From contig DAHXKX010000023.1 in the NCBI GenBank assembly GCA_027366165.1, forward strand, positions 1-34,724: a stretch of DNA of 34,724 nucleotides. The letters are read 5' to 3'. Source of the DNA: Actinomycetota bacterium (GTDB lineage Bacteria > Actinomycetota > Acidimicrobiia > Acidimicrobiales > Acidimicrobiaceae). Position 1 is the stretch's first letter. Each line of letters begins with the position of its first letter. Shown one piece after another: positions 330 through 30,746 of this stretch. The notes below the pieces were generated by a model that saw only the letters and a program-made list of their open reading frames with translations, was not told the origin of the DNA and did not search any database. A program made the translations under genes and the position numbers.

Positions 330-863
330 ATGACATACTCGATCGAAGATTTCGACGCCGTACTCAACCGGGCACGTCCTATTACTTTGTCGACCCCCGC
401 CTCCACGCTCAGACAGTGGCGAGTGGAACTAGTTCGAGCGTCGGTCTTTATATCCTACGCCATTGGGGTGTTGTCTCTGGATATCGAGATCCTCCACCAA
501 AGCATAGTGTCTACTAGCGAGAACGTCCTCCAATCACTCGTAGACGACCTTCCCGGCATACTTGCAGCCGGATGGGTTGGCGGTGGTTGGTCACTCTCCC
601 CTGACGCCTCCGTGTCCGTTGGCGCAGCGGCCGAACTGGCAGCAGATCAAGCTGACAGCCTGCTTGAATTGCACAGAGAAATGGTAACTAGCGACTTGGG
701 TGATCCCACTCTGGTTCGCGACCTTCTTAGCCGAATCGAGGAGCAACGAGAGTCCCTAGCCCTCAGGAGGGCGCAACTCGAAGACCGGATAAGACAAATT
801 CAACACATCGTTCGCGAACAGTATGCTGTCGGCGGTGCCTCGGTCGACGACTGGCTCGATTAA
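330..863 (+). CDS. RsiG-like putative anti-sigma factor
   Basis: A 177-residue helical protein with no signal peptide or membrane segment. I see two helices that align by eye, without gaps, with the two conserved helices of RsiG, the actinobacterial anti-sigma factor that binds WhiG through c-di-GMP. The first is residues 33-56 (core ISYAIGVLSLDIEIL). The second is residues 136-166 (core RRAQLEDRIRQIQ), followed by GGASVDDWL at 168-176, which resembles the RsiG tail. The RsiG ligand motif E(X)3S(X)2R(X)3Q(X)3D is degenerate in both helices: S-S-I-S-E in the first and R-A-R-E-R in the second. The next gene on the strand is a FliA/WhiG-type sigma factor, which fits a sigma/anti-sigma pair. The start ATG at 330 has only a weak GGGCAA upstream. 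The family assignment is inference from recalled consensus and gene context. Confidence 0.5.
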   Translation: MTYSIEDFDAVLNRARPITLSTPASTLRQWRVELVRASVFISYAIGVLSLDIEILHQSIVSTSENVLQSLVDDLPGILAAGWVGGGWSLSPDASVSVGAAAELAADQADSLLELHREMVTSDLGDPTLVRDLLSRIEEQRESLALRRAQLEDRIRQIQHIVREQYAVGGASVDDWLD

Positions 864-1276
864 GCCACGGCGAAACTTAGCCAGACAACACTTAGCCAAA
901 CTTTGTAAATTTTTCATCTCCTCGACCGCCGGTGATTTTCACGCCTGGGCTCATGGCATCGAAATTCCGCTATCGTGCACCATTTCATCTCCCAGCAAGT
1001 CAGCATCTGTCAATATCTCCATGCCAGATCAATCGCTCAAGTCGTGGCGAATGAAACCGCAGCCGTGGCGACCGTGTGCACCAAAACATGGATCCTCTCC
1101 CAATCCTATTCAGGCAGGAATATTCACGACCTTTGGAGGCATATGGATCCAACCGCATTCTTTCAATTCTGCTTGATTTCCTCCCAACAACTTGTGATAC
1201 CATAGCCATGGAATTTCGCTATCTATACTTATGGGGCGAGACCGGCTTCTGTGGCGGGGGCAAAAAGGTAGGAAGC
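864..1276. other. intergenic region between the RsiG-like gene and the sigma factor gene
   Basis: About 410 bases without a believable gene. An open frame at 823-1176 is rich in Ser, Pro and Trp and looks non-coding. The sigma-factor frame happens to stay open back to 1076, but those extra residues match no sigma domain. A TATACT at 1224-1229 could be a -10 element for the sigma gene, but I see no good -35 partner. Confidence 0.4.
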
Positions 1277-2071
1277 GTGTTTAGACAAGGCGAATTGGTC
1301 CCTGATGAATCCAATCGGGTCGACCGGATTGAGCAACTGTGGTCTCAGTACTTCGATAGTCGTTCAACTGAAGACAGAAATAGACTGGTACTGTTCTACG
1401 CCCCTTTGGTGAAATTAGTAGCCAACCGTGTCGCCAGGGGTGTCAGTTCGTTTCAATCAGTCGAAGAGATTTGCTCCAGTGGCCACCTTGGCTTGATAAA
1501 TGCCGTCGAGAGGTTTGACCCTACCGAGGGATTCCTTTTCGCCACTTATGCCACGATCAGAATCCAAGGGGCAATCATCGACGAATTGCGCCGAGACGAT
1601 ATGTTGCCTAAACGGATGCGGGCTAGGGTTCGAACATATCAAGTGGCACGCGAATCGCTTGAAGCAGACCTGCACCGCACACCAACGCTTCGTGAACTGG
1701 CTGCACATCTTGAGACAACGATGGCTGAAATCATGGAGATCGACGACTTGGCAATCCTATCAAGTTACCTCGTACCGTTGTCGATGGTCGGAGAGGACCA
1801 AACCCGATTTGCTGTCGGATCATCCGTTGAACCGGGCGAAGCAGCGGTCCGATCGTCCATGCGTGACACGATCAAGGCAGCACTGATGCGCATCACAGAA
1901 CGCCAGCGCCAAGTCTTGGTTCTGCACTATCTTGAGGGGTTTCATAAGAGCGAGATAGCAGAAACTCTTGGTATCGATCGATCGAGGGTAACCCAACTGA
2001 TCCAGCAGGGTTTGCGCAACCTGCGAACGCAACTCGAGGACCAGCATGGCTTGGGACGCGACCTCGAATAG
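1277..2071 (+). CDS. fliA: FliA/WhiG-type RNA polymerase sigma factor
   Basis: A sigma-70 group 3 factor that should direct RNA polymerase to late flagellar promoters. From the GTG at 1277 it has 264 residues, a normal FliA length. An AAAAGG lies nine bases upstream, and the longer upstream frame adds only non-homologous residues. Region 2 spans about residues 37-107, with the hallmark QGAIIDELRRDDMLPKRMR at 97-115. Region 3 follows at 118-175, with RTPTLRELAAHL. Region 4 at 195-255 contains the helix-turn-helix KSEIAETLGIDRSRVTQLIQ. It faces the csrA end of the flagellar operon and follows an RsiG-like gene that may encode its anti-sigma partner. FliA and WhiG are homologous. I favour the flagellar role because of the neighbours. 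Confidence 0.88.
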   Translation: MFRQGELVPDESNRVDRIEQLWSQYFDSRSTEDRNRLVLFYAPLVKLVANRVARGVSSFQSVEEICSSGHLGLINAVERFDPTEGFLFATYATIRIQGAIIDELRRDDMLPKRMRARVRTYQVARESLEADLHRTPTLRELAAHLETTMAEIMEIDDLAILSSYLVPLSMVGEDQTRFAVGSSVEPGEAAVRSSMRDTIKAALMRITERQRQVLVLHYLEGFHKSEIAETLGIDRSRVTQLIQQGLRNLRTQLEDQHGLGRDLE

Positions 2072-2286: not shown

Positions 2287-2571
2287 TTATTCAGGAGGTT
2301 TTGCAGTTGGAGACTTTGCCATGGCATTAGCCCGACGAGCACCAAACGAGGCCCAGTTCGCCGCATCCACTGCGAGCGACGGGGCAGCATTGGCCGATTC
2401 CATGTTTTCCTGACGAATCCGGTCGAGTACCTCCTGTCGATCGATACGCACGTGCTTTGGCGCCTCAATGCCGAGCCTGACGCGACCATTTGGCGAAACC
2501 GACAGGACGGTGACCACTATGTCATCCCCTATGAGGATCTTTTGACCAATTTCGCGGGTAAGTGCCAGCAT
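2287..2571 (-). CDS. csrA: carbon storage/translational regulator CsrA
   Basis: A small RNA-binding protein that represses translation by binding GGA-containing hairpins in mRNA leaders; in many flagellated bacteria it controls flagellin and is antagonised by FliW. The N-terminus MLALTREIGQKILIGDDI and the segment VRLGIEAPKHVRIDR are diagnostic, including the RNA-binding Leu4 and the Arg of the VRIDR segment. At 94 residues it is longer than the usual 60-75; the last 30 or so residues (Ala- and Pro-rich) form a tail of unknown role. It lies six bases after fliW in the same operon, the classical partner-switch pair. Confidence 0.93.
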   Translation of the reverse strand: MLALTREIGQKILIGDDIVVTVLSVSPNGRVRLGIEAPKHVRIDRQEVLDRIRQENMESANAAPSLAVDAANWASFGARRANAMAKSPTAKPPE

Positions 2572-2577
2572 GGCTCT

Positions 2578-3045
2578 TCAGTCATCTCCTTCGCTGGGAA
2601 ACGGAGTCCTGACACTCCATCCAATCTCCCGCTCACTAAAAAGAGGTACAAGTTGATCCGCGATGCCGGTTCGGCGATTTATCACGATCGGTGAATACAA
2701 ATTCGCCGTCGAACGGGTGAGTGGCTCCTGGGGATGAACAATCACGAGAAGCATCACGTCTTCCGAACTGGACAGACCCAGATTTTCCGCAATTACCTCA
2801 TCAATCTCAACTTCGTACTCCCGCCACAGGATCCAAGGCGACATCACTAGCAGGGCGAGATTGCTCAAGGCGCCACCAGCTTGCATCTGCACGGTGTCGG
2901 TGCAAATGAGACGTCCGAAGACACCTTCCGGCCCTTCTCCAACGGGCTCAACTACAAAATGTCTTGCGCCGTCGAATCCAGGCATATCACGTTTGAAGGT
3001 TAGCTCCATTCTCGTGATAAGAATGGGGTCCATTACCATATACAT
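2578..3045 (-). CDS. fliW: flagellar assembly factor FliW
   Basis: A cytoplasmic protein of 155 residues that in Bacillus binds flagellin and CsrA alternately, so that flagellin export releases FliW to inhibit CsrA. Diagnostic features are the early DMPGFDGARHF segment (compare F-x-x-GxPGF in the family), SPWILWREYEVEI and the late NLYSPIVINRRTGIADQLV. GGGAGAG lies 8-9 bases before the ATG at 3045. Several in-frame Met codons follow within 13 residues, so the exact start is uncertain. It sits between flgL and csrA on the same strand. Confidence 0.92.
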   Translation of the reverse strand: MYMVMDPILITRMELTFKRDMPGFDGARHFVVEPVGEGPEGVFGRLICTDTVQMQAGGALSNLALLVMSPWILWREYEVEIDEVIAENLGLSSSEDVMLLVIVHPQEPLTRSTANLYSPIVINRRTGIADQLVPLFSEREIGWSVRTPFPSEGDD

Positions 3046-3128: not shown

Positions 3129-4031
3129 TCAAGGTGCGATGAACTGTTGGAGCGTTTCGGGGATGGCCCGCGAGGCCGCCCAGAGTGCCGCCTGATAATT
3201 GGCCATCTCTGCATTCAACTGCGTCGTCGTCGAAGCCACGTTAATATCCAGGAGGTTAGCCTGGTTGGCTTGAACGTTGGAAATCTGAGCGGTTAGGGCA
3301 GTCGAGATACCCGAAACCTGCTCAGATGCCGTTCCCATAATGGCGCTGGCCTGCTGCGCAACAGAGAGGTTGGCATCAAGCGCAGTTAGGGCGGTCGAGA
3401 TCTCCGTGGAGGTAGGTACTCCTGTCTGAAGAGCTGTAGCCACCGCAGTCAGAGTAGCGAATACATTGGAGGCGCCAACCCCGAACATCGAGGGCCCCGG
3501 CACCGAGATGCCCACCGTATGTCCCACGCCTGGTCCAGGCCCCAAGACAACGGTGGGAACATCAGTGTTGCCAAGGTAATTGCCACTTGAGTCATATGCT
3601 TGCACCGAAGCAGAGGTCCCCCCAAAGAGGGGCCTACCCTCGAACTGAGTGTTAGAAAGCGAAAGAAGGTTGGATATCACCCCCCGCAACTGGGTTCCAA
3701 TCGCCTGATATGAAGTGGAGTTTTGCGCACCTTGATTTGCCGCCTGGAGCAACAACGTATGCGCCGATTGCATTGATTCGATGACGTCATTGGCTGTACT
3801 GGTAGCAGTGCTCAACCATGTGGTGGCCAACGCCGCGTTCGATTGCCAACTACTCAGCTGACTCGCCTGACTCGACAGGCCCAGCACCTGGGTGACCGCC
3901 GCAGGATTGTCCGATGGCAGGTTAAGCTGCTGACCCGAAGCGAGTTGTGTCTGGAGCTGCGAGATACTGTTTTCCTGCAGCGAGAGCTGGTTGGACAGCA
4001 TCTGGGTTAGCGCAGCAGTAGTAATTGACAT
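3129..4031 (-). CDS. flgL: flagellar hook-filament junction protein FlgL
   Basis: The 300-residue hook-associated protein 3, which joins the hook (through FlgK) to the filament. The N-terminal helix (ITTAALTQMLSNQLSLQ, then LQTQLASGQQLNLPSDNP) has the flagellin-like pattern seen in FlgL: SGxxxxxPSDNP near residues 33-43. The C-terminal helix (residues about 260-297) is the matching coiled-coil half. It starts one base after the flgK stop, so the two are co-transcribed and probably co-translated. Flagellin itself would have a longer variable domain and different termini, so FlgL is preferred. Confidence 0.9.
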   Translation of the reverse strand: MSITTAALTQMLSNQLSLQENSISQLQTQLASGQQLNLPSDNPAAVTQVLGLSSQASQLSSWQSNAALATTWLSTATSTANDVIESMQSAHTLLLQAANQGAQNSTSYQAIGTQLRGVISNLLSLSNTQFEGRPLFGGTSASVQAYDSSGNYLGNTDVPTVVLGPGPGVGHTVGISVPGPSMFGVGASNVFATLTAVATALQTGVPTSTEISTALTALDANLSVAQQASAIMGTASEQVSGISTALTAQISNVQANQANLLDINVASTTTQLNAEMANYQAALWAASRAIPETLQQFIAP

Positions 4032-4032
4032 T

Positions 4033-5490
4033 TCACACCGCCTGCATCAAAGCCTGAAGGTTTGCGGTTATGACATTGACCACCTTCGAAACTGCTTGAA
4101 AGGCATTCTGGGCGGACAGTATCTTGAGCTCCTGGTTGTTCATGTCGACTCCTGATATCGTCGACATATTGTTAGACGCCGTGGTTGCCAGGCTCGATGC
4201 TGCTGCCGCCACTGTGGATGCGTTTGAGGCCTGCGTCCCAAGTGCACCGATCATCATCTGATAGAGAGCATCGGGACCGGTGGCAGAAGAAGCGAGAGCA
4301 GCCATCGCCTGCGCATTTGATCCATCGAATGTCGGGGTGCCGATCACGTTGCTGTTATTCGGACCTGGTGCAGACGCGGTTGCTATCAATGTCGGATCGG
4401 CAACCAAAGCTGGGGAGACTAAAATCGTCTCAGCGGAGCCAAATCCGCCAGAACTGGTTGTGTAGCTGGTTGACGACCCGCCGTTAACGAAGACACTGGG
4501 CAATATTGTCCCAGTATAACCTCCAGCAATTCCAGATCCCGGATTGCCATTGACATTCAATCCGTTCGCCTGAAGCGAATTCAAATTTGTGGCCAAAGAG
4601 TCCGCTACCGAATTGAGCTTTGCCTCATAGCTTGGAATTGTCGAATTTACAGCTGTTATATTGGCGCCAATGGAACCTCTGACGTCCACAGCAACACCAT
4701 TGGAAGTGCTAATCCCGAGATTTGTGTTAACAGCTGATCCAGTGGATGAGAGCGTCTGAGCCACATCTCCGGCAACCAACTGAACTCCATCGAGATACAC
4801 CGAAACTGAACCATTGGGTGCAGTAGTGCTCGTGACGCCCATCAAACCAGCCAGCTTGTTGACGGCGGCCGTGCTCTGATCGATCAGTGAATTCACGTTC
4901 TGGCTCCCGGCCGCCCCTGCCACGATGCCGGCGTTCAACTGCGCCACCTGCGATAGGAGCGCGTTCGATTGAGCAAGCCATCCGCCATCATTGGCACCTG
5001 AACCTACTTGGCTTTGCAGTGAGGAAGACAGCTGGCTGAGTTCCGAGTAGCCACTGCTGATTGACGCTGCCACCGTCTGAGCAGCACCCACAAAAGCCTG
5101 TTGAACTCCAGCCTGATTCGGATTGGAGGCGAGAGCAGATAGATCAGACCAAAATGTGGACAACTGTGATGAGATCCCCGAGCTACTGGGCTCGGGGAAG
5201 ACCGACTCAATCGATTTCATCACCTGGTTCATCTGACCGGCCGCTCCTTGTACACCCTGGGCCGCGATATTCGCAGCCACATAGACTGCGTCAGTCAGTC
5301 GGGTCACCGACCCGATAAGGACCCCCTGACCTGATCCAGATGGTCCTTTCCCCGCTTCAGGAGAAAGATTCACCTGCTCTGCGGCGTACCCTGGGGTGTT
5401 GATATTGGCTAGATTGTTCGAAGCTGTATTTAGGTCAGCAGTATCCGCAGCGAGCCCACTGGCAACGATTGAAAGGCCCATGTCGCTCAT
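4033..5490 (-). CDS. flgK: flagellar hook-associated protein FlgK
   Basis: Hook-associated protein 1, 485 residues, which forms the first junction ring on the hook after export through the flagellar gate. The N-terminus has the rod/hook-family motif LNTASNNLANINTPGYAAEQ. The C-terminus ends with SGVDMNNQELKILSAQNAFQ and a helix containing VSKVVNVITANLQALM, as in FlgK. The middle is Ser-, Ala- and Asn-rich, as expected for a secreted surface subunit. Its ATG overlaps the stop of the upstream FlgN-like chaperone gene (ATGA), which fits chaperone and client being made together. Confidence 0.93.
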   Translation of the reverse strand: MSDMGLSIVASGLAADTADLNTASNNLANINTPGYAAEQVNLSPEAGKGPSGSGQGVLIGSVTRLTDAVYVAANIAAQGVQGAAGQMNQVMKSIESVFPEPSSSGISSQLSTFWSDLSALASNPNQAGVQQAFVGAAQTVAASISSGYSELSQLSSSLQSQVGSGANDGGWLAQSNALLSQVAQLNAGIVAGAAGSQNVNSLIDQSTAAVNKLAGLMGVTSTTAPNGSVSVYLDGVQLVAGDVAQTLSSTGSAVNTNLGISTSNGVAVDVRGSIGANITAVNSTIPSYEAKLNSVADSLATNLNSLQANGLNVNGNPGSGIAGGYTGTILPSVFVNGGSSTSYTTSSGGFGSAETILVSPALVADPTLIATASAPGPNNSNVIGTPTFDGSNAQAMAALASSATGPDALYQMMIGALGTQASNASTVAAAASSLATTASNNMSTISGVDMNNQELKILSAQNAFQAVSKVVNVITANLQALMQAV

Positions 5491-5999
5491 ATCATACCCT
5501 CAACCAGCACACCGCCCCTTGGGGCGTTCCGTCCATATGTGCTCTGGCCGTCAGTTTGCAGGAACCTCAAAGCGTCTTGGCTCAAAGTCGCCCGACGACT
5601 AATCGCTTCAGTCAATGACCTTGCCACACCCTGGATCTCTGTCACGGCTTCAATAAGAGCCCTACGCCGATCTAGCAAAATCTCACCCCACCCACCATCA
5701 ACACAAGCAGCAACGTCGCCGATCCGGGGCATTGGGTCGAGGTTGAGCTCATCGGCCAATCGAACGGTTGCAGAGGCACGAACCAACTCTGACAGTCGTA
5801 GAGCCTCGAACGCAATCTCAGCCTCATGGACAGCAGTTGGGATTGAACAGCCTTGATCACTGCTGGCAAGCGCTCCAAGTACGATCAATCGGTAACGAAT
5901 TGTCGCCAACAATTCAAGTTCACGATCCAGAGTCTCCACGAAATGTATAAGTAGGTCGTCAGTGTTCACCGACTGAATTAACGTCCCAGATGAGAACAA
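5487..5999 (-). CDS. flgN: FlgN-like export chaperone
   Basis: A predicted 170-residue all-helical protein. Similarity to FlgN, the cytoplasmic chaperone of FlgK and FlgL, is weak at sequence level. It rests on the helix pattern (LLIHFVETLDRELELLATI near the start, and long amphipathic helices at about 60-95 and 115-155) and above all on position directly before flgK with a 4-base overlap. The first codon of the open frame is TTG at 5999 with no clear Shine-Dalgarno. A GTG eleven codons later would begin just before the helix and is an alternative start. Confidence 0.6.
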   Translation of the reverse strand: MFSSGTLIQSVNTDDLLIHFVETLDRELELLATIRYRLIVLGALASSDQGCSIPTAVHEAEIAFEALRLSELVRASATVRLADELNLDPMPRIGDVAACVDGGWGEILLDRRRALIEAVTEIQGVARSLTEAISRRATLSQDALRFLQTDGQSTYGRNAPRGGVLVEGMI

Positions 6000-6022
6000 A
6001 ATTGAGGGGCACTAGGCAGAGA

Positions 6023-6295
6023 TCAAGCGTGGAATTCAGCTTGCGAATCGTTCACCCTCTCGGCCCTCGACTGAGTGCGAGCATAATGAAGCAGAACGGA
6101 CGAGACTAACCAAACCAGAATACTGTCGACGAACATAACTTCAGCCATACGGAAAAGCACGACCAGTATAGACAAGCTCTGCGTGAACATCTCATCAAAA
6201 GTTGGTAGCAGAACCAGGATCGAAATTACGACGACAGTCAGTGGACGGTACCTCTGAATATCCCCAATGAAAGCGTTGTAGTCTCTTCGTTTCAT
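6023..6295 (-). CDS. small two-helix membrane protein of unknown function
   Basis: Ninety residues starting at the ATG 6295, which overlaps the stop of the preceding FlhF-like gene as ATGA. A longer frame extends to 6466 but would lie inside that gene, so the coupled start is preferred. Two hydrophobic segments are visible: about residues 17-32 (PLTVVVISILVLLP) and 40-70 (SLSILVVLFRMAEVMFVDSILVWLVSSVLL). A charged tail follows. I recognise no family. Its place between the FlhF-like gene and flgN suggests a role in flagellar assembly or placement, but that is only context. Confidence 0.6.
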   Translation of the reverse strand: MKRRDYNAFIGDIQRYRPLTVVVISILVLLPTFDEMFTQSLSILVVLFRMAEVMFVDSILVWLVSSVLLHYARTQSRAERVNDSQAEFHA

Positions 6296-7398
6296 CTTCC
6301 ACTCTCCATGATTGAACCGACCAAAGCAAGCACCCAGCGAAGAGCCGAAGCTGGCAGACCATCGATGTAGACAATAGGATGTACTCCGAGAAGTTCGCCT
6401 GGGGCCGCGGTATCCGACAGAGACGACACTGCCAGAGCATCTATACATCCAAGCTGTCTTTGCCAACGATCTACATCTGATCGCTTATTGGTGGCTGACA
6501 CAGCACCCAGGACATAATCTGGCTTCAGCTTTTCCACCCAGGATGCCACCTCATTGAGACAGCGCGATCTCAACGGAGCGTCTACGACTATCACAGTCAC
6601 CTTCTTAGCACATTGGCGAAGAAGGATCTGCAATCGTGCCGAGTCACTGGGCTCAACAGCAAAAGGCTCAGACGATACGAGTCCCAGAGTGGCCACCACT
6701 TGCCTGGCCGCTGCAATGGCCTCATGACATTCGCCCACAACAACGATCACCGATCCACCGGAAATCGGAATGGGCCGTGCCTCCGGCAACTTTCTAAGGG
6801 AACGAAGCAGACCGTCAAGAGTGGCATCCGACTCACAGGGATGATACTGGCTGGGAACTCCGATACCGATTAGGCTCTCGATTAGTCCCTCGATCCTCTC
6901 GGGTTCAGCCACCACCGATTGCTCAAGATATTCTTGACGCCTTGTCTGAACTGAGCCTTCAGCTTTTGGAGTGCTTTGCCCATTGAGTGTCGCTTCCGCC
7001 TCAGAAAGCACACTACTGAAAACGTTTTCCGGGATCAAATCCAAACCCAAGACCACCTTGTCCTTGGTTCCTTCCACCAGATCGGACAGGGTAGTTCGCT
7101 CCGCGTACTTGAGCAGCTGATTTGCCCAGTCATCTGAGTCCGCGACAGCCTCGTCAGTGTGTGACCGATGAGACCATGGAGAACCAGCCTTTTCCTGCTT
7201 GGCCAAGCCTTCTGGCGGGGTAAGTCCAGCGATATAGGTCTCTCTTGCAAAGAAGCCGAAAAATCCGCCCCTTCTTGCCTTCCAGCACCGGATGGGTGCA
7301 CTGTCGCCCAGCTCTTGACGGGCACGCTGTATCGCCTCGTCGGATGTACGACCCTCGAACTCAAAGATTATCGGCTCACACGGCCGCAACAACTTCAC
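6292..7398 (-). CDS. degenerate FlhF-like protein
   Basis: A 368-residue protein directly downstream of flhA, the usual place of flhF (SRP-type GTPase that sets flagellar number and site). The N-terminus resembles FlhF domain N: FEGRTSDEAIQRARQELGD, then RRGGFFGFFARET. The middle (about 75-185) is charged and low in similarity. The C-terminal part (about 205-365) follows the alternating strand-helix pattern of an NG domain. Where the P-loop should be it reads GGSVIVVVGECHEAIAAA, with no GxxGxGK[ST]T. It therefore probably cannot hydrolyse GTP in the normal way. The start is GTG at 7398 with GGGAG nine bases upstream, and it overlaps flhA by 23 bases in another frame. Confidence 0.6.
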   Translation of the reverse strand: MKLLRPCEPIIFEFEGRTSDEAIQRARQELGDSAPIRCWKARRGGFFGFFARETYIAGLTPPEGLAKQEKAGSPWSHRSHTDEAVADSDDWANQLLKYAERTTLSDLVEGTKDKVVLGLDLIPENVFSSVLSEAEATLNGQSTPKAEGSVQTRRQEYLEQSVVAEPERIEGLIESLIGIGVPSQYHPCESDATLDGLLRSLRKLPEARPIPISGGSVIVVVGECHEAIAAARQVVATLGLVSSEPFAVEPSDSARLQILLRQCAKKVTVIVVDAPLRSRCLNEVASWVEKLKPDYVLGAVSATNKRSDVDRWQRQLGCIDALAVSSLSDTAAPGELLGVHPIVYIDGLPASALRWVLALVGSIMESGR

Positions 7399-9451
7399 GG
7401 TTCACACTCCCAACAGTCGCAATTTTCACGTTTAGTCCGATCTCGCCAACACCGAGCACCCCGATGCGAGGTAGGCTCGGTTTCAACAGGCGGTGGAGGG
7501 CTGGTCGAAGCTTGTTTGCGCACAGCACTACCGCAGTGTTGCCCTGCGCCTCGGCTTCATGTACTAGTCGTGCAACTTCCCTCACGATTGCCTCGGCCTC
7601 GCCCGCAGCGATCCCCAAACTCCTCCGGCCACGTTCACCACTACGCAGAAGGGTGAGTAGTCCTTGTTCCAAGACAGGGGAAAAGGTGACTGCCCAGATG
7701 GCGCCATCTTTCTCATACATGGAACCGATAGTGTTGGCAAGTGCTAGCCGGGCTGCCTCGACCAGGCTGTCAAGATCTTTTTGCTGGGTTCTTGCCTGCT
7801 CCGTCAGTGCCTCGACAATTCTCACAAGATCTCGCACGGGAATACCCTCTTCAAGAAGATCCCGGAGCACCCCCTGGACATCACCGAGCGTGAGGTTCGC
7901 TGACACCATTTCTTCCAACACAACGGGATTACTGCCCCTCAACGCGTCAAGCAGCAGCTTGGCATCCTGGCGCGAGACAAGACTTCCGGCGTACCCGCGC
8001 ACGATTTCCGCGAGATGAGTTGTCACGACCGCAGATCGATCGACAACTGTAACCCCAGCAACAGCCGCCTCGTGACTGAGCCCGATAGCGATCCACTTTG
8101 CGCGTCCACCGAAAGCTGGGTCACGAGTATCGATTCCGGTAAGGCCATCCAAATTCTCTCCAATGGCCAGTAGCTTCCCACGAGGTGCTTGCCCTCTGGC
8201 AACCTCGACCCCATGGACCTTGATGGCATATTCGGCGTTGGGGAGGTCAAGATTGTCTCGCGTATGAACCATGGGCATTACGAATCCGAGTTCATTGGCG
8301 ATATTTCGGCGCAATAGCTTCACCCGATCGAGCAGATCTCCGCCTCTGTCGGTCTGGACCAAGTCGATCAGCTCGACACCTAGCTCAAGGCTCAGGGGCT
8401 CCACCGCCATTCCGGCAGCCAGTGCTTCAGGAGACTCGTCGGGTACTTTGATCGACTTCACTTCGGTTTTGGCGGCCTCCTCAGCACCATCTTTTGGAAG
8501 CTTCCGTCCAAAGAAGAAGACCAGACCACCAATTATCAGAAATGGAAGCTTGGGCAAACCTGGCACTAAGGCGAGGACCATCATTATGAGACCGGCAGTC
8601 CGCACGACTCGCCTAAAACGCGAGAGCTGCTGTACCACGCTGTGGCCAAGGTCATGCTCGCCGGCTGCCCTCGTCACAATAATGCCGGTCGACAGCGAGA
8701 GTAGCAGAGCGGGTATTTGTGACACCAGCCCATCACCCACTGAGAGCAAGCTATAGGTGTCCACGGCCTGGTTCACCGCAAGGTGCCGTTGTACAATCCC
8801 GATCGTAAGACCACCAATCAAGTTGACCATCGTAATCACGATTGCCGCTATGGCGTCACCACGGACAAACTTTGACGAACCGTCCATAGCCCCATAGAAG
8901 TCGGCTTCATCAGCAATTTCCCGTCGACGGCGGCGTGCCTCTTGCTCGTCGATTGCCCCCGAGGCTCGATCAGCGTCTATGGCCATCTGCTTACCTGGCA
9001 TTGCATCCAGGGTGAACCGCGCGGCCACCTCGGCAACACGGCCCGAACCAGAGGTGATGACAACGAATTGGATAATGATCAGGATGAAGAACACCACCAA
9101 ACCAACAACGATGGAACCACCAATGACGAAGTGGCCAAAGCTCTCAACGACCACCCCGGCATAGCCATGCAGCAGCACCTGACGGGTCACCGCCACGTTG
9201 AGCGCAAGACGAAACATTGTGGCAATTAGAACCAAAGTTGGGAACACCGAAAAGTCGAGAGGCCGCTTAACCTGCATCGCAGTCAGCAATACCAAGACCG
9301 AGGCCGTAATGTTAGCCGTGATCAGCAAGTCGATCAGAAATGTTGGAAGTGGAATTATCAGCACTGCAACAACTGCCACGACAGAAAGCGGAACGGCCAT
9401 TGGAGACAGTCGCGCCCATCGGCCTACGTCAGCATTTGCGACCTCAGGCAT
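7376..9451 (-). CDS. flhA: flagellar biosynthesis protein FlhA
   Basis: The export-gate protein of the flagellar type III secretion system, 691 residues, full length. The N-terminal half has the usual eight or so membrane helices. Conserved blocks include FPTLVLIATMFRLALNVAVT, the cytoplasmic loop KFVRGDAIAAIVITMVNLIGG and DAMPGKQMAIDADRASGAID. The C-terminal half is the soluble nonameric-ring domain that docks export substrates and chaperones such as FlgN. The ATG at 9451 opens the standard FlhA N-terminus, although no strong Shine-Dalgarno is visible. It is separated from flhB by about 155 bases without a gene and overlaps the FlhF-like gene at its end. Confidence 0.97.
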   Translation of the reverse strand: MPEVANADVGRWARLSPMAVPLSVVAVVAVLIIPLPTFLIDLLITANITASVLVLLTAMQVKRPLDFSVFPTLVLIATMFRLALNVAVTRQVLLHGYAGVVVESFGHFVIGGSIVVGLVVFFILIIIQFVVITSGSGRVAEVAARFTLDAMPGKQMAIDADRASGAIDEQEARRRRREIADEADFYGAMDGSSKFVRGDAIAAIVITMVNLIGGLTIGIVQRHLAVNQAVDTYSLLSVGDGLVSQIPALLLSLSTGIIVTRAAGEHDLGHSVVQQLSRFRRVVRTAGLIMMVLALVPGLPKLPFLIIGGLVFFFGRKLPKDGAEEAAKTEVKSIKVPDESPEALAAGMAVEPLSLELGVELIDLVQTDRGGDLLDRVKLLRRNIANELGFVMPMVHTRDNLDLPNAEYAIKVHGVEVARGQAPRGKLLAIGENLDGLTGIDTRDPAFGGRAKWIAIGLSHEAAVAGVTVVDRSAVVTTHLAEIVRGYAGSLVSRQDAKLLLDALRGSNPVVLEEMVSANLTLGDVQGVLRDLLEEGIPVRDLVRIVEALTEQARTQQKDLDSLVEAARLALANTIGSMYEKDGAIWAVTFSPVLEQGLLTLLRSGERGRRSLGIAAGEAEAIVREVARLVHEAEAQGNTAVVLCANKLRPALHRLLKPSLPRIGVLGVGEIGLNVKIATVGSVNREVVAAV

Positions 9452-9607
9452 CGGGGAATCCGAAAAAATTGAACTTCATAACGCTCCCAGGGACGATTTT
9501 GTATCTTCACGTCCGTCCCTGGACATGCTTCGGCTTTCCTGCCACTAATCATAACGTCCCAATCCATCCCAAAATTGAGAGGCCTACCCGCAAATTACTG
9601 TTCATTT

Positions 9608-10690
9608 TCAACTCGGCATCCTGTGAACTTCGTTGAAGACTCGGGCGGTAGAAGAGAGGGAATACACGAAGGCCAGCAGCTGAGCCACGGCAGCGTAAAG
9701 CTTGGGAGGAATGATGTCGTCAACCTCGCACGACGCATACAGTGTTCGGGCAAGGGGAGGATTTTCCACAATAGCCACTCCGCAACCTCGGGCACGCTCC
9801 CTTATGGCAATGGCGTTGTAATCGGCACCTTTCGCGACCACCCTCGGTGCGCGGTCATTATCGCGGTCATAAACGATGGCAACAGCAAAGTGGGTGGGGT
9901 TGGCAACTACCACATCTGCTCGGGCCACTGCAGCCATTATCTGTTGTCGCGAAAGTTGACGAGCTTTGCTCCTCAGTGCCCTTCGCAGTTCCGGGGAGCC
10001 TTCGGTCTCACGAAACTCCTTTTTCACATCCTGTTTTGTCATCCGTAGGTCCTGCTGGTATTTACGACGCTCAAAGTAATAGTCGGCTCCGGCAATGGCT
10101 AATGCCAGCGCACCTATGACCCGCATGAGCGAGGCAACGGTGGATACTGCTGCCGTCAGAGTTGCCTGTATGGGAAGGGTGCTACCTCCGACCACGCTCT
10201 TCACGAGCCCATGAACGATCAAATAGCCAACGACCGCGAGAACCGAGAACTTGAGAAGAGTCTTACCCAGGGTCCAAATTCCCTGGCTCGAACCGAGTCG
10301 GCTCAGTCCAGCCTTCGGAGATATACGTGAAAACTTGACCAACGCCTTAGGAGTGAACCTCAGCCCAACCTGGGCCGCGGCAATTGCTATAGCGATGCCG
10401 CTTCCAACAAGCACGATCGGCAATGCCGCATATACCATTGTCTCGAGTCCCTTGCCCAATATGGCCACTGCCATTCCCGGGCTCGGGTGGCCCATCGCCC
10501 GTATGGTTTCTTGCAAGAATCCGCTGATTTGATTTTCCGCGAGACTCCCGAGCCGTGGCAGCATTGACCCGACCAGCAAGAGACTGGCCCACCCGCCAAG
10601 TTCAGCCGATCTGGCAACATTACCTTGCTCCCGCATCTCCTTTCGATGCTTGGGAGTCGCCTTTTCGGTATTCTGAGACTTATCAGCCAC
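9608..10690 (-). CDS. flhB: flagellar export switch protein FlhB
   Basis: The substrate-specificity switch of the flagellar export apparatus, 360 residues. The N-terminus KSQNTEKATPKHRKEMREQG is typical (EKAT-PKR-type). Four membrane helices follow, then the cytoplasmic domain with the autocleavage site NPTH at about residues 264-267. The downstream motifs VVAKGADYNAIAIRERA and PLARTLY are also present. Cleavage between Asn and Pro switches export from hook to filament subunits. Translation starts at GTG 10690, whose first base is the last base of the fliR stop codon, so the genes are coupled. Confidence 0.96.
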   Translation of the reverse strand: MADKSQNTEKATPKHRKEMREQGNVARSAELGGWASLLLVGSMLPRLGSLAENQISGFLQETIRAMGHPSPGMAVAILGKGLETMVYAALPIVLVGSGIAIAIAAAQVGLRFTPKALVKFSRISPKAGLSRLGSSQGIWTLGKTLLKFSVLAVVGYLIVHGLVKSVVGGSTLPIQATLTAAVSTVASLMRVIGALALAIAGADYYFERRKYQQDLRMTKQDVKKEFRETEGSPELRRALRSKARQLSRQQIMAAVARADVVVANPTHFAVAIVYDRDNDRAPRVVAKGADYNAIAIRERARGCGVAIVENPPLARTLYASCEVDDIIPPKLYAAVAQLLAFVYSLSSTARVFNEVHRMPS

Positions 10691-11454
10691 TAGATTGCTC
10701 CAAACAACTGAGTTATTGCCTTCCCGACAAGGTTGGTCACGTCACCCGGAAGAGCAATTAGTGCAACGCTCACCACCATAAGTGCCACGGCGACCTGGAG
10801 TGGCATCCCGAAGACGAACACGTTGATCTGTGGTACCGCCTTGGCAAGCAACGCAAGCAGAATTTCCGTACAAAAGAGGATTACAATAACCGGTGCAGCG
10901 ATCTCTATAGCCGCGGCGAAGAAAGTTGCCACGTCACCGGCCACGGTTTGGGCCAATGATCCCAATGTGGTCGAAGGAAAACTGGTTCCCACCGCCTGGA
11001 ACGACCTCACAAAGCCTTCCACAATTACAACCGCAGCACCGGTTGTGAAAAGCAGAGCCGTTAGCACAAGGTTGTAGAACTGACCGAAGAGCGGCGTCTG
11101 CTGTTGCGACAGGGGATCCATTGCCTGGGGTAGATTGAGTCCGGAGAACAGATCAATGAGACTGCCTGCAGCAACCACCGTGTTTACGAACAGAGAAACG
11201 ACAAATCCAAGCACAACCCCAACAAATGCTTGGACAACGACCTGAATCATCACCTGAGCATCACTTTGCGGAAGAACGTCATGCTGCAGGGTTCCAGCCG
11301 CAAAAAAGGCAACTGCACCGGCAAAACCAATCTTGACCTTCACAGGGATTGACACGTTCGAAAACGGGGGACAAACTACAACCCACGCAACCGAGCGAAC
11401 AAACGCCAGTATAAGAGCCGTGGCAAAAGCGGGAGAAAGTCCGAACGTGATCAT
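10690..11454 (-). CDS. fliR: flagellar export gate protein FliR
   Basis: An integral membrane protein of 254 residues and about six helices, part of the FliPQR gate. Visible family features are the N-terminal FVRSVAWVVVCPPFS, the central VVAAGSLIDLFSGLNLPQAM with DPLSQQQTPLFGQF, and a C-terminal hydrophobic stretch ending near VGKAITQLFG. The start overlaps the fliQ stop (ATGA) and the end overlaps flhB by one base. Confidence 0.94.
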   Translation of the reverse strand: MITFGLSPAFATALILAFVRSVAWVVVCPPFSNVSIPVKVKIGFAGAVAFFAAGTLQHDVLPQSDAQVMIQVVVQAFVGVVLGFVVSLFVNTVVAAGSLIDLFSGLNLPQAMDPLSQQQTPLFGQFYNLVLTALLFTTGAAVVIVEGFVRSFQAVGTSFPSTTLGSLAQTVAGDVATFFAAAIEIAAPVIVILFCTEILLALLAKAVPQINVFVFGMPLQVAVALMVVSVALIALPGDVTNLVGKAITQLFGAI

Positions 11455-11726
11455 TGCCCAGCTATGACCTGGGGTATCGAGTTGTATAAATGCTCGGTGT
11501 AGACCACTATGTTTCCCAACATCCAGTGGCCCAAAATCAGAATGATGACGGCTATTGCTGCCACCTTTGGCAAGAACGTCAGGGTGAACTCCTGAATTGA
11601 GGTGACAGCCTGGAAGATTGACACCAAGAATCCGACCACGAGACTCGCCACTAGTATCGGGCCCGCCAGCTCTAAAATCAGCACCATCGCCTGTGAGGCC
11701 AGGTTTATAACAGTGGTATCACTCAT
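11451..11726 (-). CDS. fliQ: flagellar export gate protein FliQ
   Basis: A 91-residue membrane protein with two helices, the normal size for FliQ. The conserved LILELAGPILVASLVVGFLV and the segment SIFQAVTSIQEFTLTFLPK mark the family. It lies four bases after fliP and overlaps fliR by four bases, as expected for subunits of one FliPQR complex. Confidence 0.95.
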   Translation of the reverse strand: MSDTTVINLASQAMVLILELAGPILVASLVVGFLVSIFQAVTSIQEFTLTFLPKVAAIAVIILILGHWMLGNIVVYTEHLYNSIPQVIAGQ

Positions 11727-11730
11727 GGAC

Positions 11731-12417
11731 TCAGTGATTGAACGAAATCAGGAGCGAATGTACCACCAGGGACCAGCCATCGACCAGGACGAAGAGCAGA
11801 ATCTTGAATGGAAGTGAGATCAGCGTGGGCGGAAGCATGTAAATTCCCATGGACATCATGATCGCTGATACAACCAGATCGATGATCATAAATGGAATGA
11901 AGATCATGAATCCAATGAGGAAAGCGGTCTCGATTTCCGACAGTACAAACGCTGGGATCACAGTCGTCATGGGCAGCGACGCAGGTTTGCTAACGTCCTG
12001 ATGGCTGTATGACGCAAAGAGGCTCAGCTCCTGTTGCTTGGTCTGTTTGAGCATCCAGACTTTTAAAGGCACTTCACCTTTGCCGATTGCTTGTGTAGCT
12101 GTTAGCGTTCCGTGCTCATATGGCTGGATCGCAACTTGATTGATAGTCGATATGACGGGTGACATTATGTACAAAGAAAGGATCAGCGCCAGACCAGCAA
12201 GCACTTGGTTCGGTGGGACGGTTTGGGTCCCCAAGGCATTGCGGGTGAGCGACAATACAATGAAGATGCGTGGAAAAGCCGTCATCAGCATGAGCACCGA
12301 GGGTGCTATGGCCAACACCGTCAGAACGACGATGATTAGGACCGAGGTTGAAGGACTCTTTAGCCCACTGATATTCACATTGACGCTCGAGGCAGCGACT
12401 AACAGCTCAGGAGTCAT
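11731..12417 (-). CDS. fliP: flagellar export gate protein FliP
   Basis: The core subunit of the FliPQR export gate, 228 residues. Conserved blocks are MLMTAFPRIFIVLSLTRNAL, PPNQVLAGLALILSLYIMSP, the C-terminal EIETAFLIGFMIFIPFMIID and MGIYMLPPTLISLPFKILLF. The N-terminus is short and has no clear cleavable signal peptide, unlike many proteobacterial FliP proteins. It follows fliO after about 70 bases. Confidence 0.96.
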   Translation of the reverse strand: MTPELLVAASSVNVNISGLKSPSTSVLIIVVLTVLAIAPSVLMLMTAFPRIFIVLSLTRNALGTQTVPPNQVLAGLALILSLYIMSPVISTINQVAIQPYEHGTLTATQAIGKGEVPLKVWMLKQTKQQELSLFASYSHQDVSKPASLPMTTVIPAFVLSEIETAFLIGFMIFIPFMIIDLVVSAIMMSMGIYMLPPTLISLPFKILLFVLVDGWSLVVHSLLISFNH

Positions 12418-12485
12418 TGCCTACCCCCCTGAGCTCTGGGTACGTTAACAGCATGAGTACTCCCATAGGAGCGTCAAGCACGACT

Positions 12486-12905
12486 TCAGTGCCGGACGGT
12501 CATCTCCCGTAGATGGTCTATGAAGGCATCCCATGCCCCTGGGTAACTGCCCCCAGAGCCTAACGCCGTCCCTGGCGTCAAGATTTGTTTCAAACCATTC
12601 TCTGACACCGCGGCGGAAGAGTCAGATTTCGCTCCTTCATCTCCCTCCAACTCGGCCAGCATCGTCATCTGCTGCGCACTCTGACCGACAAGGAATGTCC
12701 GACTCGCCACTCGAATGACCAGCAATGACACATGCTGGCCCAGCGAGCGACGAGATAGTACCTCAATGTGGCCAAACGGCATCTCCCCAAGGCGGTGACC
12801 ACCTAATTGACGCTTCTTCCCAATCCGGGCCAGCACTAAAAGCCCAACTATGATCAGTCCCAGCACCAGGATCATCCGCCCAAATGCCAGCAAAGAAGCG
12901 CCCAC
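12486..12905 (-). CDS. fliO: flagellar protein FliO
   Basis: A 139-residue protein with one N-terminal membrane helix (ILVLGLIIVGLLVLARI, about residues 12-28). A small cytoplasmic domain follows with the FliO pattern EVLSRRSLGQHVSLLVIRVASRTFLVG. FliO helps FliP assemble in the membrane. It starts at GTG 12905, with an AAGGAA near the end of fliN as ribosome binding site. The C-terminal 50 residues are variable. The family is poorly conserved, so the call rests on the central motif plus its place between fliN and fliP. Confidence 0.88.
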   Translation of the reverse strand: MGASLLAFGRMILVLGLIIVGLLVLARIGKKRQLGGHRLGEMPFGHIEVLSRRSLGQHVSLLVIRVASRTFLVGQSAQQMTMLAELEGDEGAKSDSSAAVSENGLKQILTPGTALGSGGSYPGAWDAFIDHLREMTVRH

Positions 12906-12908
12906 CGC

Positions 12909-13238
12909 CTAGAGTTCCTTCCCCGCAACTATTTCGGTGATGCGGATTCCATATTCGTCGCCCACTTCCACGACTTCACCACGAGCTAGTACGACCTCCC
13001 GATTGAGCACGATCTCAATCGGGGCGCCAACGGGCTGGTCCAGTTCAATGACCCGGCCAGGACGGAGTTCGCTCAGTTCGCCAAACGTTAGTTTCGTCTT
13101 ACCGATCCACGCCGACACCTCGACTGACACGTTACGGAACTGAGCCTCACGTACACGCTGTCTCTCTTCGTGACCGGCATCGCTTACCACCGCTTGGTGC
13201 GCCGCCGATGTGGAGTCAACACCTTCTGTGGTAGTCAC
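12909..13238 (-). CDS. fliN: flagellar motor switch protein FliN
   Basis: A 109-residue C-ring protein. The SpoA domain fills residues 38-107, with VSVEVSAWIGKTKLTFGELS, then LRPGRVIELDQPVG and RGEVVEVGDEYGIRITEI. The N-terminal 35 residues are polar and contain no CheC-like phosphatase domain. The GTG start overlaps the fliM stop as GTGA, so FliM and FliN should be made in a coupled way. It forms the base of the rotor with FliM. Confidence 0.95.
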   Translation of the reverse strand: MTTTEGVDSTSAAHQAVVSDAGHEERQRVREAQFRNVSVEVSAWIGKTKLTFGELSELRPGRVIELDQPVGAPIEIVLNREVVLARGEVVEVGDEYGIRITEIVAGKEL

Positions 13239-14128
13239 CTAAAAACCTCCTCCTTGATTTCACACGCCTTATGCACTCCAGAACTGCAGATTTCCGCCAA
13301 AGCAACGAGAAGCCCATCAGCACGGACCTCGAGAGGTCGACCTTTTGGGTGGCCGAGACCAAACATGTCCCCTACTCGAAGTGTGAGCAGTTCAGATGGT
13401 GTGGTCACAATACTTGGAAACTGGAACACAACGTCTAATGGGATTTCCAAAAGGCGTTGGTGGGTGCCAGCGGCGACAGAATCCATTTGGCCCTCGCCGA
13501 CTTGCAGCGTCTTCGACTGCAGACTGTCGATGAACATTCGCACCATTTGGAACGGTATGCATATTACCGCCTCTCGTGGGGATCGATCTGCTACCGAGAA
13601 TGAACACCGCGCTACCACGCACATTTCAGAAGGTGAAGCAACAGAGGCGAACAAGATGTTCCCTTCTTGTGCCTCCAGGCTCGGCGATGTGGCTTGAATC
13701 CTCGTAAAGGCATTTGCCAACTCTCCAATGAGATGCTCAACGATCGGCGCGAGAAAGGCCTGGTCAAGTTCACTAGGAATTCGCCCCGTGAAATCATCAT
13801 CACCTGAACCGGCGAGTCGTATATCGACGATGGCCAGAGCCTCGTCCGTTGGAATCGTCAACAGTGCCCGCCCGGCGATTGGGAGGAGCGAGAACATGAA
13901 GAAGTACATGCCAGTCTCTAGCTCTTTGGCCAAGTCACCCCACGTGAGTTGATCCAGCTGAACAATTTCAAACGTGCAATGTCTGTGCAAAATTGTAGTT
14001 AGCCTCTGTGTGGCCGAACGGGCAAACGCCTCCAAGAGCCCTTGTATCACCTGAAGGTTCACGCGTTCGATCACATCACCTCGGCGAAAATCGTGCATTC
14101 GAATATCTTTGGAGTCCTGAGACATCAC
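13235..14128 (-). CDS. fliM: flagellar motor switch protein FliM, without the CheY-binding N-terminus
   Basis: A C-ring rotor protein of about 297 residues. It begins essentially at the middle domain: HDFRRGDVIERVNLQVIQGL, then GMYFFMFSLLPIAGRALLTI. A SpoA-like C-terminal domain follows (about 205-290: RLLEIPLDVVFQFPSIVTT). Most FliM proteins open with LSQxEIDALL, the segment that binds phosphorylated CheY; here only SQDSKDIRM precedes the core. Translation may start at GTG 14128 or the ATG at 14125; neither adds the missing segment. It lies 25 bases after motB and overlaps fliN. Confidence 0.92.
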   Translation of the reverse strand: MMSQDSKDIRMHDFRRGDVIERVNLQVIQGLLEAFARSATQRLTTILHRHCTFEIVQLDQLTWGDLAKELETGMYFFMFSLLPIAGRALLTIPTDEALAIVDIRLAGSGDDDFTGRIPSELDQAFLAPIVEHLIGELANAFTRIQATSPSLEAQEGNILFASVASPSEMCVVARCSFSVADRSPREAVICIPFQMVRMFIDSLQSKTLQVGEGQMDSVAAGTHQRLLEIPLDVVFQFPSIVTTPSELLTLRVGDMFGLGHPKGRPLEVRADGLLVALAEICSSGVHKACEIKEEVFR

Positions 14129-14153
14129 GCACTCACATATCGAGCGCTAGCCA

Positions 14154-14930
14154 TCACGGCTTGAAGATACTCGAGGGACTGACGATAATGTTTACCCTGC
14201 GGTTCTCCGACTGGCCTGCGGCCGTGGCGTTTGTCGCCAATGGGTGATACTGGCCGTAACCGATCGAGGCTACCTGGCCTGGATTGACACCGTCGATTTG
14301 TGTCATACGCACGACGACCGAAGTAGCCCGGGCGGCCGACAATATCCAGTTGTTTGCATATGGCCCGCCTGTAATCGGCACATTGTCCGTATAACCTGCG
14401 ACTTCGATCGCATTCGGGTACACTTTGAGCACGCCGGCCGAGGTGTCGACCACCTCCATGCCCTGAGGGGTTAGATCCGCGACATCCGAACCAAAAAAGG
14501 TGGAGTCCGCCACCAAGCCAACAACCAGTCCTGCTGAAGTAATGGAAAAAGTCACGCTTCCCAACAGCCCCTTCGCATTCAGCGCTGACGCCAACTCCTG
14601 TTCGATCTGCAACAGTTGATTGGTCTGCTGATTGGCCTGGGTATTTTCGTTGGTCAGTTTTGCCGTCGAGTTCTGGTTCAGGTTTGTCGTACCATGCGGC
14701 GTGTGCGTTAACAACGCGCGTGTAACTGACTGCTTGAACTCTTGATACTTCGCCTGGTCGATTGTTGAAATCGCATACAGCACAATAAACAAGACGAGGA
14801 GTAGGGTGATCATGTCCGCATAGGTAAGGAGCCAGCGCTCCTGACTCGACTCTTGATGGTCGCGATCGCCATGGGAATTTCTGGCGCGTCTGCTTGAAAT
14901 GGTTCCATTCATGGTTCTTGCCTCTATCAC
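14154..14930 (-). CDS. motB: flagellar stator protein MotB
   Basis: The peptidoglycan-anchored stator subunit, 258 residues. A short cytoplasmic tail is followed by one membrane helix, LTYADMITLLLVLFIVLYAI, with the proton-binding Asp at residue 39. A Gln- and Asn-rich linker leads to the OmpA-like domain (about 150-255) with EVAGYTDNVPITGG, LSAARATSVV and ENRRVNIIV. The GTG start overlaps the motA stop (GTGA). The conserved Asp and absence of sodium-type PomB features suggest a proton-driven motor, but that cannot be proved from sequence. Confidence 0.95.
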   Translation of the reverse strand: MIEARTMNGTISSRRARNSHGDRDHQESSQERWLLTYADMITLLLVLFIVLYAISTIDQAKYQEFKQSVTRALLTHTPHGTTNLNQNSTAKLTNENTQANQQTNQLLQIEQELASALNAKGLLGSVTFSITSAGLVVGLVADSTFFGSDVADLTPQGMEVVDTSAGVLKVYPNAIEVAGYTDNVPITGGPYANNWILSAARATSVVVRMTQIDGVNPGQVASIGYGQYHPLATNATAAGQSENRRVNIIVSPSSIFKP

Positions 14931-15715
14931 GCGGCGGCATCCGGAGCCTCTCCAAGGTGTCCCCGAGTTGGCGTCTGCTCGCGTTCTGACGGTGAGAGGT
15001 ACGCATACAAGCGGTCTTTGAGCTCCGTCGTCGATGCATTCAACTGCATGGTTAGTAACCCTTCAACCACCATTTCCCGGAAAGCGACCTCCTCGTCCGA
15101 GAGGCGACGCAGCTTGTTGGAGATTGGCAGCCATACGGCATTCGCTAACAGAACCCCCCAGAGCGTGGCGGTGAATGCGGAGGCAATAGCCGGGCCGAGC
15201 TTGCCAGGGGAACTCAACTGACCAAGAACCCCGATTAAGCCAACTACAGTTCCCAGAATGCCGAATGTCGGTGAAAATCCCGCCATATCGGAAAAGAACT
15301 TTGTTGCCGTCTGGTGGCGGGCCCTAAGCCCCTCGATCTCTGTGGCCATCAGCTCTGCTACCCGTTCCGGCTCCGATGTAGAGATAATCAGGTCGATACC
15401 CTTTTTCAAGAATGCGTCATCGGTCTCCATTTCTTCAAGGACTAAGGGGTTGGTGCGGGCCTCCTTTGCAATTGCCAAAAGAGAATCGATCGTAGCGCGC
15501 GTGTCTGGGCCTTTACGCGGCTTGATTACCAACAGCAATGCCTTGGGAATTGCCCGGAGCCGACGAAGCTCAAACCCAGCCATTGAGGCACCAAGACTGC
15601 CCCCGACGACCAGGATCATCGAAGAAACCTTGAAGAGTGATCCAAGGTTGTCGTGATCCATAGTCATAGCGCCCAGCAGCGCTAATAGGCTGATGAGGAT
15701 TCCAATCGGGGTCAT
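14927..15715 (-). CDS. motA: flagellar stator protein MotA
   Basis: The membrane subunit of the MotA5B2 stator, 262 residues with four membrane helices. Family marks are the N-terminal LISLLALLGAM, VGGSLGASMAGFEL, the loop ERVAELMATEIEGLRARH and the block GFSPTFGILGTVVGLIGVLG, with the functionally important Pro. FTATLWGVLLANAVWLPI then leads into the last helix. Its ATG overlaps the flbD stop (ATGA). Confidence 0.96.
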   Translation of the reverse strand: MTPIGILISLLALLGAMTMDHDNLGSLFKVSSMILVVGGSLGASMAGFELRRLRAIPKALLLVIKPRKGPDTRATIDSLLAIAKEARTNPLVLEEMETDDAFLKKGIDLIISTSEPERVAELMATEIEGLRARHQTATKFFSDMAGFSPTFGILGTVVGLIGVLGQLSSPGKLGPAIASAFTATLWGVLLANAVWLPISNKLRRLSDEEVAFREMVVEGLLTMQLNASTTELKDRLYAYLSPSEREQTPTRGHLGEAPDAAA

Positions 15716-15993
15716 CGCTCTATCACCTGGCTCAATATCGGCACCTCGGAGACTGTCGTATGCGTGGGCGTCACCTTCAGCTGTTTGTGTGGACCCTGCC
15801 GAACCCTGAGGAGCTGGACCACCTTTTCTGAACGAATCTTCTCGACCACTTCAGCTGAGTCATTTGCCACTATGATGCGGCCGCCATTTATCAGGTAGAT
15901 CGCCGACTGCCCGTCTGCCCCATCTTCTACGCGCTCTATAAGATCCTGATTGAGATACATTACCGATCCGTCAAGCTTATGAACCGCTATCAC
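15712..15993 (-). CDS. flbD: FlbD/SwrD-family flagellar protein
   Basis: A 93-residue protein of the FlbD/SwrD family, known in Bacillus to support stator power and swarming. The N-terminal MIAVHKLDGSVMYLNQDLIE and INGGRIIVANDSAEVVEKI match the family core. The last 30 residues are an extension beyond the usual 60-70. It starts at GTG 15993 with GGAG six bases upstream and overlaps motA by four bases. It is the first visible gene of the long flagellar operon, although rod and hook genes normally found just upstream of flbD are not here. Confidence 0.88.
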   Translation of the reverse strand: MIAVHKLDGSVMYLNQDLIERVEDGADGQSAIYLINGGRIIVANDSAEVVEKIRSEKVVQLLRVRQGPHKQLKVTPTHTTVSEVPILSQVIER

Positions 15994-16036
15994 TTGGTCT
16001 CCGTTCCAAGAATGGGCTTATCACCATTTGATAACG

Positions 16037-16067
16037 GCCCATCGCCTCTCGAAATTGAGAGGTGGGC
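16037..16067 (-). promoter_or_regulatory. hairpin in the leader of the flagellar operon
   Basis: CCTCTC and GAGAGG enclose the loop GAAATT, and GCCCA/TGGGC extend the stem across a 3-base bulge. It lies about 45 bases upstream of the flbD start. Close by, on the minus strand, GCCGTTAT matches the sigma-28 -10 consensus at 6 of 8 positions with only a weak -35 (TCAA). It could be an operator or a leader structure; no function is proved. Confidence 0.35.
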
Positions 16068-23705: not shown

Positions 23706-23738
23706 TGGGTCCCTCCTTCTTTCGGTTTATTCTACGGA

Positions 23739-27467: not shown

Positions 27468-27479
27468 TCAACTCTCCGA

Positions 27480-28670: not shown

Positions 28671-28717
28671 CGCTCCTTAGTCACCGAGTCAGTGATCGTG
28701 CGAAACAAGCCTGCCGA

Positions 28718-29572: not shown

Positions 29573-29601
29573 TGCTCATCCTTTCCACTTGAAAATGGGT
29601 A

Positions 29602-30453: not shown

Positions 30454-30458
30454 ATTCT

Positions 30459-30704: not shown

Positions 30705-30746
30705 GACAATCCCTCCTCGTACTCTGACCTAGTTTTACCGGCAGTC

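Follow-up and report, generated by a model that had tools for sequence, protein, structure and literature searches.

An RsiG homologue without c-di-GMP motifs and a diverged WhiG/FliA-type sigma factor in a flagellar cluster of the Acidimicrobiales

We report that a 34,724-nucleotide stretch of DNA from a member of the Acidimicrobiaceae (contig DAHXKX010000023.1, analysed over its whole length and hereafter called the window) encodes a homologue of the anti-sigma factor RsiG that lacks both c-di-GMP motifs of that family, and that this gene stands beside the gene of a diverged WhiG/FliA-type sigma factor and a flagellar cluster. The reading that we consider probable, with some reserve, is that of an RsiG-type anti-sigma factor working without c-di-GMP on a flagellar sigma factor with promoters of its own. 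RsiG-WhiG is the only sigma/anti-sigma complex known to be targeted by c-di-GMP, and the RsiG motif is strikingly conserved among homologues, a twin-motif RsiG having been reported for three of four Acidimicrobiales (PMC8325347). A search of the openly available literature on RsiG/WhiG, flagella, Acidimicrobia and loss of c-di-GMP control, with subscription papers and preprints outside its scope, returned no description of an RsiG without the motif.

Homology and fold of the RsiG variant and its sigma factor

Two open reading frames on the plus strand concern us here, one at 330-863 (177 residues) and one at 1076-2071. The first is not recognised by plain searches: Pfam holds no family for the protein at E-values up to 5, a single-sequence phmmer search against PDB sequences returned chance coiled coils and no RsiG, and hmmsearch with a four-sequence variant profile ranked RsiG last (E=9.9). 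The homology is therefore visible only through a canonical profile, profile-profile comparison or structure. A canonical profile built from S. venezuelae RsiG and two homologues from other families of the order (L005 and L006), and containing no variant, retrieved the window protein (E=5.1e-7 in a search of its own genome) and the variant protein of G002 (E=1.5e-6). In hhalign, nine variants aligned to this profile collinearly and over nearly the full length (residues 21-176, P=7.2e-10). L005 and L006 are textbook twin-motif RsiGs (L005 against S. venezuelae RsiG, 6PFJ, E=2.9e-14) and match the window protein weakly, at 27-29% identity; its closest relatives, 64-70% identical, come from other species of the same genus.

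The AlphaFold2 model of the protein (pLDDT 76, pTM 0.72) has two long helices (residues 24-60 and 126-166), short helices between them and a C-terminal helix (172-176). Among 350,542 PDB chains compared with Foldseek, the four chains of S. venezuelae RsiG (6PFV/6PFJ) took ranks 1-4, each with a match probability of 1.00, although with modest E-values of 0.03-0.1, and the next match had a probability of 0.28. VIA-align superposed 153 of the 160 residues on RsiG with a Z of 10.8, against 7.6 for the second-best fold. Helical proteins reach structural scores easily, but the gap to the next match, the coverage and the agreement with the sequence profile together leave little doubt about the homology. 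That the protein is an unrelated coiled coil resembling RsiG by chance, as the missing Pfam match and the failed phmmer search might suggest, is contradicted by profile, profile-profile and structural comparisons that all rank RsiG first by a clear margin, and we hold it to be extremely improbable. The initial annotation had called the protein RsiG-like and had aligned its tail, GGASVDDWL, with that of RsiG; the assignment can now be made with confidence, and in our alignment too the tail corresponds to the RsiG C-terminus. Between the long helices lies a linker (residues 81-100, GWVGGGWSLSPDASVSVGAA; 570..629, plus strand) that is modelled with low confidence. The window's linker (GWVGGGWSLSPDAS) is nearly invariant across the variant family and unlike that of canonical RsiG.

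The neighbouring gene encodes the flagellar-type sigma factor that the initial annotation had recognised. The longest open reading frame begins at 1076, while comparison with relatives, together with a good ribosome-binding site, points to the GTG at 1277 as the start, giving a putative product of 264 residues (1277..2071, plus strand). Pfam places sigma regions 2, 3 and 4 in the protein, and the best match among solved structures is S. venezuelae WhiG (6PFJ, 1.2e-37), which outranks the entries for FliA. Of the NCBIfam models, FliA_WhiG (TIGR02479) scores highest, with 167.4 bits against a curated cut-off of 189.6. The WhiG-type sigmas among the matches listed from 395 genomes of the class are 34-41% identical to the window sigma, with the exception of those of G400, G637 and G687 (family f23, genus g76), at 63-70%. 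The other diverged sigmas are closer still, with 74% identity in G002 and in G421-G423 and 80% for a partial gene in G006. Residues K57, G61 and R62 of the sigma factor were considered as a marker of c-di-GMP contact and set aside, because the partners of canonical RsiGs also vary there.

Motif loss, selection and c-di-GMP signalling

In the RsiG motif, aspartates and arginines read guanine, the glutamine stacks on guanine, and the glutamate and serine bind the ribose (PMC8325347). The best register of the E(X)3S(X)2R(X)3[Q/H](X)3D motif in the window protein matches at most three of the five residues. At the place of the first motif in helix 1 (residues 38-53; 441..488, plus strand) the protein has S38-S42-I45-S49-E53 against the canonical E-S-R-Q-D, and at that of the second in helix 2 (residues 140-155; 747..794, plus strand) it has R140-A144-R147-E151-R155 against E-S-R-H/F-D, residue for residue as first annotated. 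Canonical helix 1 is E-S-R-Q-D in 56 of 57 distinct homologues of the order and E-S-R-Q-E in the remaining one, and canonical helix 2 is E-S-R-H/F-D in all but four. The second-motif glutamine or histidine, the residue that stacks on guanine, is a phenylalanine in 18 of these 57 otherwise canonical RsiGs (L082-L085, L089-L091, L101 and L102 of family f1, genus g4, and others).

None of the 11 distinct variant sequences, encoded in ten genomes and including two copies in G421, has the motif. Helix 1 reads S-S-(I/N/L)-(S/G)-(E/K/R/S/T) in these 11 sequences. Helix 2 is mostly R-x-R-E-R; it is C-V-K-T-A in G637, which weakens the case for R-x-R-E-R as a conserved replacement site, and one sequence ends before it. 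The two copies in the G421 assembly (L012 and L015) differ from each other and reflect either a strain mixture or a recent duplication. The initial annotation had described the motif as decayed. It is indeed lost, but decay is misleading as a description of the gene: dN/dS is about 0.04 (range 0.01-0.05) among the closest variants, those of G421-G423, and similar for the diverged sigma gene, which indicates that the variant RsiG gene is under purifying selection and is no relic.

One serine and usually one arginine of the motif survive in the variants, so that some residual or altered nucleotide binding may persist. The variant could be an RsiG-type switch for another ligand, or one with altered c-di-GMP binding, that uses the residues now standing at the motif positions (S-S-x-S in helix 1 and R-x-R-E-R in helix 2) and the conserved, tryptophan-containing linker. 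In favour of this, nine of the ten variants with a helix 2 largely keep these residues, and the linker hardly varies; yet the guanine-reading aspartates are lost throughout and helix 2 of G637 reads C-V-K-T-A, and we regard this explanation as rather unlikely.

Loss of c-di-GMP signalling itself is an unlikely cause of the motif loss. In the roughly one quarter of the window's own genome that was read, one protein carries PAS, GGDEF (1.5e-41) and EAL (1.5e-60) domains, and in G637 a GGDEF protein is encoded some 7 kb away from its RsiG gene. Given such proteins, c-di-GMP is probably made in the organism, yet the variant anti-sigma has no recognisable site for it. In G637 the GGDEF domain near the RsiG gene is joined to an antibiotic-biosynthesis-monooxygenase (ABM) domain (L158:7807-8951, minus strand), an unusual pairing.

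Flagellar context, co-occurrence and a promoter-like element

Beyond the pair and on the opposite strand, Pfam identifies csrA (2287..2571, minus), fliW (2578..3045, minus) and, within 3129..15993 (minus), flagellar operons with flgL, flgK, flgN, flhA, flhB, fliR, fliQ, fliP, fliO, fliN, fliM, motA and flbD, so that the initial placing of the pair in a flagellar locus stands. These operons are likely targets of the sigma factor. The cluster also holds two conserved genes without a Pfam match, one at 6292-7398 (minus; 36-53% identity) and one at 14125-15039 (minus; 30-33% identity) between motA and fliM, where motB is the expected gene. Farther along the window, a run of acyl-CoA genes at 22950-32126 (minus), comprising three enoyl-CoA hydratases, two 3-hydroxyacyl-CoA dehydrogenases, a thiolase, a CoA transferase, an AMP-binding ligase and an amidohydrolase, looks like a cluster for the degradation of aromatic compounds or fatty acids.

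FlgM is the anti-sigma factor of FliA, and the variant had been proposed to sit where FlgM would normally act. This fits the missing FlgM, for which the window's genome (86% complete) gave no match above cut-off, but FlgM is a short, divergent family and the negative is correspondingly weak evidence; the 177-residue protein itself has no match to PF04316 (FlgM). One could imagine a FlgM-like checkpoint, in which the sigma factor is held until the hook is finished and the variant is then exported, or captured by a partner on the flagellar or CsrA/FliW side. The variant does always occur with a flagellar cluster, in the window's case in a genome without a FlgM match, but its fold is that of RsiG and unlike FlgM's, and we judge such a checkpoint improbable.

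FlhA of the window is 79% identical to that of the f23 genomes and 53-58% identical to that of sibling genera of its own family, whereas RpsB is about equally close to both. This contrast suggests horizontal transfer, but the sigma tree has a very long and saturated stem. The whole flagellar cluster (3129-15993 in the window; G400:C45, G637:C27, G687:C106 and G421:C140) may possibly have been transferred.

The variant RsiG occurs in ten genomes (G000, that of the window, and G002, G005, G006, G421-G424, G400 and G637), and the diverged sigma factor occurs in nine of them. The check for the same gene pair in relatives that accompanied the initial annotation is therefore positive. The exception, G005, has its RsiG gene at a contig end of a fragmentary assembly. 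Only in the window and in G002 do the genes stand side by side. In G400, G637, G687/G424 (which share contig coordinates and are counted as one genome) and G421 they lie about 35 kb apart, at opposite ends of a flagellar cluster with the same gene order from flbD to csrA. Both genes are missing from G001, G003, G004, G007 and G008 of the same genus. The separation of the genes in several genomes, and the long divergence, would be consistent with a variant that no longer restrains the sigma factor and now serves elsewhere, perhaps as a flagellar assembly protein or a chaperone of the sigma, but the strict co-occurrence with the diverged sigma and the retained RsiG fold and tail speak against this, and we give it little credence.

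What became of the native pair can be followed in the same genomes. Each of the family's eight genera has an RsiG match. Those sibling genera that were inspected carry native whiG with a tyrosine recombinase gene on one side and rpsB-tsf on the other, and canonical RsiG is encoded elsewhere. In the window's genome, the whiG at this place is interrupted by several stops and is a pseudogene (L115; G000:C120, about 7060-7470, flanked by the recombinase gene and rpsB), and a whiG remnant is left in G003. In G002, G005, G006, G008, the f23 genomes and G421-G423, rpsB comes next after the recombinase gene, and the interval holds no whiG match. Searched with the canonical RsiG profile, the variant genomes yielded no further RsiG of canonical type. 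No RsiG/WhiG pair other than the diverged one was thus detected in these incomplete assemblies.

The cluster genomes share a further feature, a promoter-like element, CTCAA(C/T)T-N11-GG(T/G/C)CCGTA(A/G), that is conserved upstream of flagellin. A weight matrix built from the other genomes only found exactly three sites of at least 17 bits in the window, all on the minus strand: before flbD (16032..16059, CTCAATTTCGAGAGGCGATGGGCCGTTA), before flhA (9552..9579, CTCAATTTTGGGATGGATTGGGACGTTA) and at the start of the flgN-flgK-flgL operon (5979..6006, CTCAATTTTGTTCTCATCTGGGACGTTA). No such site arose in 60 Markov resamplings of the window, and elsewhere in this genome 538 kb of sequence held two sites of at least 15 bits. 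One more site in the window, at 2947 on the plus strand (16.0 bits), lies inside fliW and is probably due to chance. CTCAAyT-N11-GGtcCGTAA precedes the same flagellar operons in all cluster genomes examined (L154-L158, L164 and L184-L188), and it was not found in the flagellar-cluster stretches read from sibling genera with native WhiG. We infer from this co-occurrence that the diverged sigma factor may read the element. The standard flagellar promoter is TAAA-N15-GCCGATAA; as a candidate it was rejected, with no exact match in the window and three sites with two mismatches where 1.7 are expected.

A proposed mechanism and its place among known systems

In our preferred reading, that of an anti-sigma factor working without c-di-GMP, the variant retains the RsiG fold, an antiparallel coiled coil of two long helices with a linker and a C-terminal tail, and would bind the neighbouring sigma factor, most likely holding regions 2 and 4 by direct contacts independently of the nucleotide. 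In S. venezuelae RsiG a long loop shields the nucleotide dimer (PMC8325347). Because the linker of the variants is nearly invariant and unlike the canonical loop, it is the first candidate for a replacement contact and may stand in for the c-di-GMP bridge. Once released by some signal, the sigma factor would transcribe the flagellar operons from CTCAAyT-N11-GGtcCGTAA. The phosphodiesterase RmdB is reported to bind WhiG and to block its binding by RsiG (PMC13232838, published in 2026), and this precedent makes protein antagonists a realistic means of release; FlgM-like export would be another. The restricted adjacency of the two genes and the low confidence of the modelled linker count against the proposal. 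More tentatively, it is possible that the pair has left the c-di-GMP switch altogether, acquiring a new promoter type, a new linker and release by an assembly-linked signal or another ligand, within a cluster found in two families of one order.

The variant is best compared with S. venezuelae RsiG (6PFJ, 6PFV), the twin-motif, c-di-GMP-dependent anti-sigma factor of WhiG (PMC8325347). The two are alike in length, helix order, linker position, C-terminal tail, fold and a WhiG-type partner. Unlike the S. venezuelae protein, which acts in sporulation, the window protein has a different linker and neither E(X)3S(X)2R(X)3Q(X)3D motif, and belongs to a flagellar locus where it stands beside the sigma gene in two genomes. 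RsiG of Rubrobacter radiotolerans (7LQ2-7LQ4) is a single-motif homodimer that controls type IV pili (PMC8325347). It shares with the variant the RsiG family, a unicellular host and a partner of the flagellar-sigma clade, whereas in the window protein a single chain supplies both helices and the motif is absent. FlgM would be its counterpart in role, as the anti-sigma factor of a flagellar sigma within a flagellar locus, but the sequence and fold of the window protein show no relation to it. A further comparison lies within the genus: G008 encodes the same anti-sigma and sigma families, but its RsiG (L088) has E-S-R-Q-D and E-S-R-H-D intact, and its WhiG (L044) has K, G and R at the c-di-GMP-contact positions. 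FliF was not found in the G008 genome.

In summary, nature seems to have rewired a known c-di-GMP control circuit in some acidophile-type actinobacteria. The partner, the promoter-like element and the gene context have shifted in concert, while a species of the same genus retains the original. The lineage makes it possible to test directly whether an RsiG coiled coil can hold a sigma factor when no nucleotide is bound, and by what route a second-messenger switch comes to be escaped or replaced.
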